Shown here one piece after another: positions 10,904 through 60,980 of a stretch of 64,000 bases of DNA. A model generated the notes under the pieces. That model was not told the DNA's origin and made no database searches. It saw only the letters and a program-made list of their open reading frames with translations. Numbering within the stretch: the first letter of the stretch is position 1; every line of letters begins with the position of its first letter. The position numbers and the translations under genes are program-made. The DNA is taken from NCBI RefSeq assembly GCF_000504305.1, contig NZ_KI632512.1:1672250-1736249 (forward strand), in the 5' to 3' direction. Source of the DNA: Nitratidesulfovibrio termitidis HI1 (GTDB lineage Bacteria; Desulfobacterota; Desulfovibrionia; Desulfovibrionales; Desulfovibrionaceae).

Positions 10904-11905
10904 ATGCAGCAAGGCGAATTCAAGGAACTGGCCCGCAAGCGCATCCTGGTCACCGGGGGCGCGGGTTTCATCGGCTCGCACCTGTGCCGCCGCCTGCTGG
11001 ATCGGGGCGCGGAAGTGCTGTGCGTGGACAACTTCTTCACCGGCTCGCGCGACCATGTGCAGGAAATGCAGGACCACCCGCGCTTCGAGCTGCTGCGCCA
11101 CGACATCACTTTTCCGCTCTACGTGGAAGTGGACGAAATCTACAATCTGGCCTGCCCGGCGTCGCCCATCCACTACCAGTTCGACCCGGTGCAGACGACC
11201 AAGACCTGCGTGCACGGCTCCATCAACATGCTGGGGTTGGCCAAGCGGGTCAAGGCGCGCATCCTGCAAGCCTCCACCAGCGAGGTCTACGGCGATCCGG
11301 AAACCCACCCCCAGACCGAAGACTACTGGGGCCGGGTGAACCCCATCGGCCCGCGCTCGTGCTACGACGAGGGCAAGCGCTGCGCCGAAACCCTGTTCAG
11401 CGACTACCACCGCCAGCACGGGGTGCCCATCCGCATTGCGCGCATCTTCAACACCTTCGGGCCGCGCATGCACCCCAACGATGGCCGCGTGGTCAGCAAC
11501 TTCATCCTGCAGGCCTTGCAGGACAAGCCCATCACCATCTACGGCGACGGCAGCCAGACCCGTTCGTTCTGCTACGTGGACGACATGGTGGATGGCCTGA
11601 CCGCGCTGATGCACGCCCCGGACAACGCGGACGACGCGCACCTGCCGGTGAACCTCGGCAACCCCGAGGAGCGCACCATCCTGAATCTTGCCGAGATCAT
11701 CATCGAGTTCGTCAACTCGCGCTCGACCATCGACTTCCGCCCGCTGCCGCAGGACGACCCGCGCCGCCGCCGCCCGGACATCGCGCAGGCAAAGGAAAAG
11801 CTGGGCTGGGAGCCCAAGGTGAGCATGGAAGAGGGGCTGCGGAAGACCGTGGAGTATTTCGAGGGGTTGCTGAGGTCGCGGCGGGAAGAAGGGGCGGAGG
11901 TGTAA
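10904..11905 (+). CDS. UDP-glucuronate decarboxylase (UDP-xylose synthase)
   Basis: A 333-residue extended short-chain dehydrogenase. The NAD-binding GGAGFIG is at residues 18-24, and the catalytic YDEGK places Y154 and K158 in the YxxxK motif. STSEVYGDP and the [12 protein letters not shown] segment closely match UDP-xylose synthases, which turn UDP-glucuronate into UDP-xylose for surface polysaccharide. AGGAGA lies 5 bases before ATG 10904. A dTDP-glucose dehydratase is less likely given the YDEGK-R motif. It is followed by a long repeat-filled gap. Confidence 0.88.
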
Positions 11906-11951
11906 CGTCATTACGTGAGGGAAAAGAGAGGTCGCGCGCTCTTGGGTACGG

Positions 11952-12080
11952 CCTCTACGAAGACAGTTCTGCCTTTTTGAGCACCCTCGATTTCGTTATG
12001 CCTCCGGCGGGCAAGGGGCCATTAAGCGATGGCCCCTTGCATCCCCGCGCTCCGGGGGCTCCGCCCCCTGGTCCCCCGGC
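11952..12080 (+). repeat. R1 repeat, element A left copy
   Basis: Contains cttctacga-like sequence, ctcgatttcgttatgcctcc, then a perfect 11-bp stem (12011-12021 with 12030-12040, arms gcaaggggcca) and a second GC-rich hairpin. It lies 46 bp after the stop of the upstream gene, so it may also act as a terminator. Confidence 0.85.
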
Positions 12081-12595
12081 GCTCGCCGCGACGCATGTGC
12101 CGCCGCCAAAGCCCGGCGTCACACGCTTCTACGCACATCACATTTCCTTTGAACCCCACATGGGTGCCCCGGCCCCACGGACACGGCGGCCCGCATCCGC
12201 AACGCCGGAGCTTCCGCCGTCGCAAGGCCTCCGGCGGCGATCTCCGGCTGCGGACGCGTATCACCGCATGCAGGTAGCCCCAGCCCTTTTGGGGTGTCAG
12301 GTCGCGTGGCAAAGGTCCAGCCAGAGTGTGCGCAGACAAGAAGCCTCGAACGCCAGGGAGTCTAGCAGGGGACACCGACAACATCGCGTGCGTAGAAGCG
12401 TGTGACGCCGGGCTTTGACGGCGGCACATGCGTCGCAACGGGCGGATGGATAAAGACACCCAAGTGAAGTCGGGGCAACGGGAGATTCGCGCGCATCGCA
12501 TTCCCGTCGGCAGATCGCCCGAAGGCGCCTTACGCCGAAGGGAAGCTGCCGACGAAAGGAGTGCGGCGCAGGATACGTCGGGGGGTCCAGGACTT

Positions 12596-12716
12596 CAGCC
12601 GTTAGGCGAGCGCGAAGATCGACCCGAAGGGCGCGAAGCGTGGCCGTTGGCGAGCTTGCGAGCCGTACGGCCATCGTACGCAACGCGCGAGTCTTACGGA
12701 TGAAGATAGCAGAGCT
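12596..12716 (-). repeat. R2 repeat in element A
   Basis: Read on the minus strand it starts gctctgctatcttcatccgt and continues through gactcgcgc and cgcccttcgggtcg. It is related to units at 16151, 45736, 53371 and 60799. Confidence 0.75.
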
Positions 12717-12721
12717 GGCGA

Positions 12722-12835
12722 AGCGCCCCCGGAGCGCGGGGATGCAAGGGGCCGCCGCTATGCGGCCCCTTGCCCGCCGGAGGCATAACGAAATCAAGGG
12801 GAGTCAAAGGGGCAGGACTGTCTTCGTAGAAGCCG
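12722..12835 (-). repeat. R1 repeat, element A right copy
   Basis: Reverse-complement copy of R1 with a 12-bp stem (12744-12755 with 12762-12773). It is followed at 12863-12930 by a further partial copy lacking the hairpin. Confidence 0.85.
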
Positions 12836-12862
12836 TACCCATCGAAGGGCATCCCCCCTCAT

Positions 12863-12930
12863 TCCCCGCCGGAGGCATAACGAAATCAGGCGTGGTCAAC
12901 AGTGCACGACTGGCTTCGTAGAAACCGGGT
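12863..12930 (-). repeat. R1 repeat, partial third copy
   Basis: Shares ccgccggaggcataacgaaa and the cttcgtagaa end with the full copies, but lacks the stem-loop. Confidence 0.7.
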
Positions 12931-13141
12931 ACAACCGCGCACGACATATCCCTCCCTTCCCCCTCTGCGTCCGCTCCCATACCCTATTACCCCCGCCAAC
13001 AGCCCCCCCCCTGTTGCCCCCCGCCGCAAGAGATATTACCTAGTCCTTCGCCGCGTTGCGCAACACAACGCCCCACCCGCAAACCTTCGCGGTCTCGCCG
13101 CCGCAGCACATACGGGCATCTTCCCCGAAAGGAACATCCAC

Positions 13142-60041: not shown

Positions 60042-60135
60042 TTGATGGGGGCTGCCGCAAGGTGGCCCCTTTTGTTTGGGGCGCCAAGGCGGGGGAATAG
60101 GGTGCTGGCCGGGTGGGGATGGGTAGTGCACGGTT

Positions 60136-60273
60136 GTAGCCGGCTTCTACGAAGGCAGTCGTGCCCTGTTGAACCCCCTCGATTTCGTTATGCCTCCGGC
60201 GGGCAAGGGGCCATGGAACGATGGCCCCTTGCATCCCCGCGTTCCAGGGGGGCTTCGCCTCCCCTGGACCCCC
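60136..60273 (+). repeat. R1 repeat, element B left copy
   Basis: ctcgatttcgttatgcctcc then a 12-bp stem (60203-60214 with 60221-60232) and a second hairpin; 95 bp after the dnaB stop. Confidence 0.85.
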
Positions 60274-60798
60274 AACGTCTCATGCGCGGCGTCCCTTCGG
60301 CGTCAGCTTCCCCTCGGCGCTAGGCGCCTCGGGGCGATCTGCCGCCGGTGCCGCCAATGCGCGCAATACTCCCGCTAACATGGCCAAGCGAGGGTGCTTT
60401 TACCTCCGACCCCGTTGCGACGCATATGCCGCCGTCAAAGCCCGGCGGCATACGCTTCTACGCGCGAAAGTTGGTCCATGAACAATCGAGTTACCTTATG
60501 GTCGTCCAGCCAGTTCCATAAAAATGCACATCCTTCACCTGAGCGCAAGAAACCGTTACGCGGCGATACGCAGCCGCAGCCGGAGATCGTCGCCGAGGCT
60601 TTGCGAGGCGGAAGCTCCGACGTCGCGGATGCGCGCCGCAGAACCCGTGAAGAAAAATACTCCCCCGCTTCGCCGTGCCAACGGGAGCCTCGCGCACATT
60701 CGCATTCCCGTTGCCAGATCGCCCGGAGGCGCCTTGCGCCGGAGGGAAGCTGACGACGGAAGGAACGCGGTGCATGAAGCGTTGGGGGTCCAGGACTT

Positions 60799-60851
60799 CA
60801 GCCGTTAGGCGAGCGCGAAGCGCGAGTCTTACGGATGAAGATAGCAGAGCT
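60799..60851 (-). repeat. R2 repeat in element B
   Basis: agctctgctatcttcatccg then taagactcgcgc on the minus strand; truncated compared with the copy at 12596. Confidence 0.7.
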
Positions 60852-60859
60852 GTGGCGGA

Positions 60860-60980
60860 GCCCCCCTGGAGCGCGGGGGTGCAGGGGGGCCTCGCTAAAG
60901 GCCCCCCTGCCCGCCGGAGGCATAACGAAATCGAGCGTGTTCAACAGGGCGCAACCGTCTTCGTAGAAGCCGGGTGCAAC
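60860..60980 (-). repeat. R1 repeat, element B right copy
   Basis: Stem gcaggggggcct/aggcccccctgc (60881-60892 with 60899-60910), where both arms differ from the other copies in a compensating way; 54 bp past the stop of the DUF748 gene. Confidence 0.85.

Follow-up and report, generated by a model that had tools for sequence, protein, structure and literature searches.

Introduction

BIMEs are extragenic mosaics of palindromic modules that occur in both orientations downstream of genes, and binding of gyrase, IHF or Pol I is one of their properties. MITEs, such as those of the ERIC, RUP or Correia type, are dispersed non-coding repeats with inverted ends. The BOX elements of Streptococcus pneumoniae (boxA-boxB(n)-boxC) have, to our knowledge, no mirror symmetry. 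As described in an excerpt of the published account, they have terminal inverted repeats and target duplications and measure 67–637 bp (PMC3049150). Palindromic repeats may also receive other DNA; according to an excerpt of another report, IS1397 and ISKpn1 enter REP/BIME units site-specifically (PMC1525189).

Element A is a non-coding set of nested inverted repeats at approximately 11943–12942 of the window, i.e., the stretch of 64,000 nucleotides from Nitratidesulfovibrio termitidis HI1 that was analyzed. We give a probability of roughly two in three to the reading that it is one instance of an interspersed repeat that is modular, non-coding, and specific to the genus, and that works in the manner of BIMEs and BOX elements. 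Among bacterial interspersed mosaic repeats, it constitutes a new type, large and mirror-symmetric, that is restricted to the genus. No published description of such repeats in this lineage was found in the open-licence literature.

Results and Discussion

Structure of elements A and B

The first R1o module of element A begins 44 bp past the stop codon of a gene of the NAD-dependent epimerase family (10904–11905; gene call and Pfam). The outer arms of the element (11943–12059 and 12725–12841) are 117 nt long and 88% complementary, and the inner arms (12080–12136 and 12388–12444) are 57 nt long and 93% complementary. The folding energy of 11943–12930 is -620.5 kcal/mol, compared with -435.1 +/- 10.6 for 20 shuffles, and our own gene finder made no call in this region. 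Together with an extra end repeat, these features agree with the sequence-only reading, which had described about 1 kb of geneless nested inverted repeats. The R1 copies at both ends, the inner inverted pair, and the R2 unit of that reading were all found (Table 1). Its limits needed revision, as the right end lies further out (about 12942, where alignments to other copies stop, or beyond) and the stretch listed as R5 belongs to another repeat family. Element A has particulars of its own: the left R2 is absent, R3 is present twice, an R5 unit is inserted, and an additional R1o lies at the right end. R3 contains GCTTCTACG, which is common to R1o. The core has 134 nt, whereas the cores of the orthologues L053, L070, and L080 have 202 nt and are mostly dissimilar by eye.

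Table 1. Modules of element A, the canonical copy element B, and associated features. Positions refer to the window unless a locus is named.
Feature	Position	Strand	Basis or remark
R1o, outer end module	11950..12017	+	nhmmer
R1i, two short hairpins; entry point of the IS3-family element in other copies	12022..12075	+	profile search
R3, best conserved module, hairpin	12087..12135	+	profile search
R4, imperfect palindrome	12189..12254	+	profile search
Variable core, R4 to second R3	12255..12388	.	by-eye comparison
R3, second copy, inverted	12389..12439	-	profile search
R2, covarying hairpin with invariant internal-loop bases	12480..12581	+	profile search and structure test
R5, unit of a different, dispersed REP-like family	12618..12685	+	inside short R5-type hairpin
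R1i, right arm	12717..12760	-	profile search
R1o, right arm	12767..12834	-	profile search
R1o, additional tandem copy, right end	12862..12926	-	profile search
Terminator-like hairpin with T-run, after DnaB-like gene and before element B	60047..60070	+	
Element B, canonical copy	60142..60971	.	+R1o +R1i -R2 +R3 core -R4 +R2 (short R5) -R1i -R1o
IS3-family copies inside R1i	L033:3885-5199, L039:2113-3427 (G000:C1 ~2.035, 3.859 Mb), L134 (congener)		

No PHROGs match up to E 1 was found for the two antisense open reading frames of element A (159 and 166 aa), whose sole Pfam match (E 0.097) is below its cut-off. Given no gene call and no above-cut-off family match for these frames, a decayed gene was rejected as the origin of element A.

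Element B lies 48 kb from element A, between convergent DnaB-like and DUF748 genes. Its folding energy is -548.3 kcal/mol, compared with -352.6 +/- 6.1 for shuffles. Searches of 72,556 plasmid and 50,697 phage records returned no match to element B, and a search of IMG/VR returned none to the R3 pattern; an origin from a phage or plasmid was rejected on these grounds.

Copy number and taxonomic range

The recurrence of the components 48 kb away, pointed out from the letters of the window, was found at element B and at 14 further loci. The N. termitidis HI1 genome thus has 16 element loci, in addition to solo R5 units. This count is based on module profile searches on fetched loci, with each of two loci split by an insertion sequence counted once. 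A BLAST search of element A against this genome (4,257,954 bases in one contig) returned 135 pieces. The R1 query returned 43 pieces, 39 of them within the 16 loci; the remaining four matches are weak (E 2e-5 to 8.5e-4).

When the same genome and 29 relatives were searched, the seven congeners each had 31 to 116 pieces, and five of the 22 non-congeners had one or two. The strongest fetched locus of a non-congener aligns to the R5 region of element A, and another aligns to R1 (L059, L060). An R2-R2-R3 query matched all eight Nitratidesulfovibrio genomes. Among the other genomes of the family, only three of 280 had a match, of just 25–47 nt at E 4e-5 or weaker, where scoring covered two candidates in each genome. 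A scan of one genome per species (84,980 species), which may omit the own or very near genomes, located the exact R3 25-mer in 27 stretches of five genomes, namely Nitratidesulfovibrio liaohensis, N. oxamicus, Desulfovibrio sp. A2, and two Desulfovibrio MAGs. Where counterparts in relatives lay in the fetched stretches, their flanking proteins were mostly 80–100% identical to those of N. termitidis HI1.

The sequence-only reading had named a search of the whole genome and of relatives as its check. That search extended well past two copies, and no homologous gene covering the region came up. Its preference for a dispersed element over a decayed gene is upheld by the 16 loci, the presence in all eight genus genomes, a stereotyped module order, a covarying R2, and the lack of a coding signal.

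Module order and the R5 family

The elements share a mirror order of five modules, R1o-R1i-R2'(-R2')-[R3 - variable core - R4']-R2(-R2)-R1i'-R1o', in which a prime marks a reversed module. The block of R3, core, and inverted R4 occurs in either orientation between the R2 units, and further tandem R1o copies are common at the element ends. Each arm has one or two R2 units as a rule, although L082 has three R3-R2 units. The spacer between R2 and R3 is 37–45 nt in 46 of 47 cases (19 nt in the remaining one), and the core between R3 and R4 is 75 to 290 nt long. Complete copies in N. termitidis HI1 measure 0.8–1.4 kb. Half-elements and remnants also exist, including in this genome (L031, L034, L037, L040, L042, and L043).

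R5 forms a REP-like family of its own, which occurs at other places in the genome as solo units and doublets. The 68-bp R5 unit of element A sits within a short R5-type hairpin, which element B keeps intact (60801–60846). With its many near-identical solo copies of 67 bp (also in L045–L050), R5 looks like a small mobile unit, for which element A has the filled form and element B the empty one.

Pairing, strand bias, and conservation

Among the 30 copies of the R2 hairpin in the N. termitidis HI1 genome, 93.8% of the cells are paired. With a structure string made by hand, the covariation score is 0.283, compared with 0.113 for shuffled alignments (0/500) and at most 0.086 when the structure is slid. 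Cells changed on both sides number 86, compared with 28.8 in shuffles. Counted by pair, change on both sides (9 vs. 7.7 shuffled, a value reached by 95 of 500 shuffles) and further pair types (22 vs. 22.4 shuffled, 380 of 500) are at shuffled levels. Several unpaired internal-loop bases of R2 are invariant.

The strong covariation and the invariant unpaired bases speak for a structured ncRNA family, in which the elements would be transcribed, R2, R4, and R3 would be functional RNA domains, and the arms might form a long duplex. All 16 folded elements also have a minimum free energy below the mean of five shuffles. On the strand with R3 antisense, the arm mismatches comprise 438 G.U and 316 A.C in 26 elements, after nine of 35 elements with mixed core orientation were left out, and G.U exceeds A.C within R2 (48:24) and R4 (29:9) when all copies are counted. 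In addition, a single promoter-like site is present in element B, on its minus strand (60681–60654), compared with 0.1 in shuffles. However, the orthologues in the mismatch count are non-independent, and the seven own-genome elements with clear orientation give 111 G.U and 89 A.C. The excess is absent in R3 (6:7). A single transcribed strand predicts that the R2 excess is reversed between the arms, but the counts are 69:38 for R2 on the R3 side and 29:23 for R2 on the R4 side. Furthermore, the core orientation flips and element A has no promoter-like site. An Rfam 15 scan of the window at gathering score returned one tRNA and nothing else, and a search of element B at E up to 5 returned three matches at chance level. 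As regards the earlier suggestion of a structured RNA, the R2 hairpins covary strongly, but the strand counts point in no single direction and no Rfam family corresponds to the elements. Overall, we regard the ncRNA explanation as unlikely.

The two arms of an element are also no closer to each other than to the arms of other elements. The R1 identity within an element is 0.823 (seven pairs), equal to that between elements (0.823 +/- 0.040), and the R2 identity is 0.725 between opposite arms of one element (16 pairs) and 0.744 between different elements (408 pairs). These values indicate that the long hairpin follows from the mirror order and is not maintained as a unit, which is a further point against a functional RNA duplex. 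Maintenance of a giant hairpin by arm-to-arm conversion is unsupported by the same comparison.

When orthologues were compared with the fourfold-degenerate sites of the adjacent gene, R3 was more alike in 28 of 36 comparisons and R4 in 22 of 33. R1o (14/45), R1i (21/45), and R2 (18/38) change no more slowly than these sites. In these tallies many pairs share species and are non-independent, and the identical pair L053/L080 was left out. The conservation of R3 and R4 suggests constraint beyond drift. It is possible, although we consider it distinctly unlikely, that the elements are a genus-wide functional set of multiple hairpins in which a factor of Nitratidesulfovibrio recognizes R2 and R3/R4, with the core as a variable payload. 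Recognition in such a set, equally doubtful, would be as RNA or as extruded DNA, with an invertible, locus-specific core at the tip of a modular stem.

Turnover at orthologous sites

Four loci were followed in the eight genus genomes (G000, which is N. termitidis HI1, to G007). Among these 32 sites, 17 are filled. Locus B is filled in six genomes (G000, G002, G004, G005, G006, and G007, with G004 lacking R3 and R4), the glycosyltransferase locus in five (G000, G003, G004, G005, and G007), the aminotransferase locus in two (G000 and G006), and the HD/FtsX locus in four (G003, G004, G006, and G007). Partial elements or R1 remnants occupy 10 sites, at the glycosyltransferase (G001, G002, and G006), aminotransferase (G001, G003, G004, G005, and G007), and HD/FtsX (G001 and G005) loci. 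Two sites are altered altogether beyond the gene (G001 at B and G000 at HD/FtsX), and three are unreadable due to a contig end or the lack of a gene match (G003 at B; G002 at aminotransferase and HD/FtsX). In G000, the DNA after the HD-domain gene (L125, ~3.93 Mb) is AT-rich, unlike its surroundings, and was probably acquired horizontally.

Because 10 of the 12 readable sites without a full element retain R1 remnants, these sites look like deletions. No usable pristine empty site was found among the four loci in the eight genomes, and no target duplication was readable at the sites compared. The mapping of empty versus filled sites that had been proposed thus succeeded for filled sites and remnants, but not for empty ones, so that insertion is no more than a possible route of spread.

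Other loci show further types of change. At the EamA-family transporter locus, N. termitidis HI1 has three R1o copies alone, whereas a relative has a long element (L082). L066 and L041, both at the hisA locus, have cores in opposite orientations with 93% core identity, and the L066 core is 0.74–0.75 identical to those of the two other orthologues. Flipped copies were found at two more loci, with core identities of 71–82% (0.55–0.68 for shuffled controls). L031 and L033 are separated by ~208 kb in N. termitidis HI1, but at L084, a locus of a MAG, their left flanks lie on either side of a single element, facing each other. This arrangement resembles, and could be, the product of an inversion through the repeats; it could also be a chimeric assembly, and the reciprocal junction is unreadable as the contig starts 124 bp before the gene.

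An IS3-family insertion and possible mobilizing enzymes

A 1288-bp IS3-family element with rve, HTH_21, and HTH_Tnp_1 domains has four copies in N. termitidis HI1 and one in G001, and is absent from the other six genus genomes at E 1e-60. Three of the five copies are inserted at the same point of R1i, between its two hairpins. One of the other two occupies a different GC-rich hairpin close to an R5 doublet, and the last, whose first 36 bp are missing from the alignment, is at a site with no clear palindrome. Direct repeats of three bases are readable at four of the five copies, in three cases within single-base runs. Judging by these sites, it is a candidate hairpin-specific insertion sequence, and its repeated entry into R1i matches the behavior of IS1397 and ISKpn1 on REP/BIME units, as far as the excerpt of that report describes it (PMC1525189).

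RAYT (PF01797) was not found in the N. termitidis HI1 genome, and partial Y1_Tnp matches are present in two of the eight genus genomes. A REP system driven by RAYT was rejected on account of the missing PF01797 match in the own genome.

Multiple geneless copies, inverted ends, and variable presence at orthologous loci could also reflect a non-autonomous transposon, namely a MITE with large terminal inverted repeats and a transposase supplied in trans. However, unlike MITEs, the elements have no fixed ends, as their termini are tandem R1o arrays of varying number. The R1 remnants at most sites without a full element, with the other two sites altered beyond the gene, and the lack of a readable target duplication are further points against it. 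No partner transposase was found, and the ends of the IS3-family element, the one resident insertion sequence compared, are visibly unlike the element ends. The non-autonomous mobile element that the sequence-only reading had raised is therefore improbable in the strict sense of a MITE.

Position relative to genes and the chromosome

At 15 of the 16 loci, at least one gene reads into the element. The flanking genes are convergent at six loci, in tandem at nine, and divergent at one, compared with 10, 57, and 12, respectively, of 79 other intergenic regions, which were defined by our own simple gene finder on the fetched stretches without annotation. This corresponds to an enrichment of convergent arrangements (6/16 vs. 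10/79; Fisher p 0.026). The distance from stop codon to element on 21 sides is 33–62 nt in 11, 100–162 nt in nine, and 225 nt in one. Inspection of 17 gaps by eye revealed a hairpin-plus-T terminator ahead of the element in six, all of at least 100 nt, and none in the 11 shorter gaps. The R1 hairpins have no T-run on inspection. Since canonical terminators already lie upstream at six of 17 gene ends, the earlier idea of a terminator structure is unlikely to describe the main role of the elements, and an intrinsic terminator in this role was rejected. The neighbor genes are ordinary, and no functional theme was seen among them.

Two copies (~2.6905 and 2.7105 Mb) bracket dnaA-dnaN-gyrB (L147, G000:C1 2,698,219–2,703,539) at distances of ~8 and 7 kb. 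A second dnaA, preceded by two DnaA-box-like motifs, is located at the contig start (L148:609–2000). No element locus was found in the zone that runs from 4.16 Mb across the contig ends to 1.07 Mb, which has only R5 units and one 26-nt R1 piece. The gene-end position, the conservation of R3 and R4, the bracketing of dnaA-dnaN-gyrB, and this element-free zone could fit a nucleoid or transcription-boundary structure, either a cruciform or a site bound by proteins, with a role in insulating the ends of genes or organizing the chromosome. Such a boundary structure is very improbable given that the copy content at the same locus differs between species down to remnants, that ordinary terminators precede the element at six gene ends, and that the gap in the distribution is a post hoc observation.

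Comparison with known repeats

Classical BIMEs are smaller and far less regular in order than the elements of Nitratidesulfovibrio, which speaks against the BIME-like reading, as do the constraint suggested for R3 and R4, the missing RAYT match, and the lack of a usable pristine empty site. Both are extragenic mosaics found downstream of genes, with palindromic modules facing either way. Unlike BIMEs, these elements have larger modules of at least four kinds, a mirror order, a variable core, copies of 0.8–1.4 kb, and 16 loci; their genome lacks a RAYT match, and they have no Rfam match. The genus-restricted range also speaks against sequence homology to the enterobacterial palindromic units. 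Entry of an IS3-family element at one point is common to both, on the BIME side according to the excerpted report (PMC1525189).

BOX elements are likened here by architecture, since both are modular and fold into hairpins, and, as far as the excerpted account goes, both have variable copy numbers of inner modules and are enriched between convergent genes (PMC3049150). In contrast to BOX, the element ends are tandem R1o copies of varying number with no readable target duplication. For GTAG-tagged REPs, the likeness is one of letters only: on the antisense strand, R1o and R3 have CGTAGAAGC in common, and the hairpin of R3 adjoins the GTAG. R5 is REP-like and forms doublets, but, unlike in GTAG-tagged REP/RAYT systems, a RAYT match is absent from the own genome. 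Lacking a RAYT match and BOX-type termini with target duplications, the elements are filed under neither BIME nor BOX.

Proposed origin and implications

According to the reading of element A as a modular interspersed repeat, small hairpin modules (R1, R2, R3, and R4) would have been assembled in mirror order around a variable core, with no enzyme of their own, and would occupy tolerant space directly downstream of genes. Early spread within the genus may have occurred through an enzyme that is no longer resident, and present change would proceed mainly via recombination and slippage between the repeated parts. Any effect on the host is probably indirect, with the elements acting as tolerated filler of 3' flanks and at most as insulators between transcription units. 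They may also be places where the chromosome can rearrange.

Taken together, these findings extend the small set of interspersed mosaic repeats known from bacteria by a type that is large, mirror-symmetric, and built of several modules. The eight genomes allow loss, module swap, core inversion, and insertion sequence entry to be tracked site by site. The elements bear on the origin and persistence of such repeats without a resident RAYT, as well as on assembly breaks and rearrangements in Nitratidesulfovibrio.
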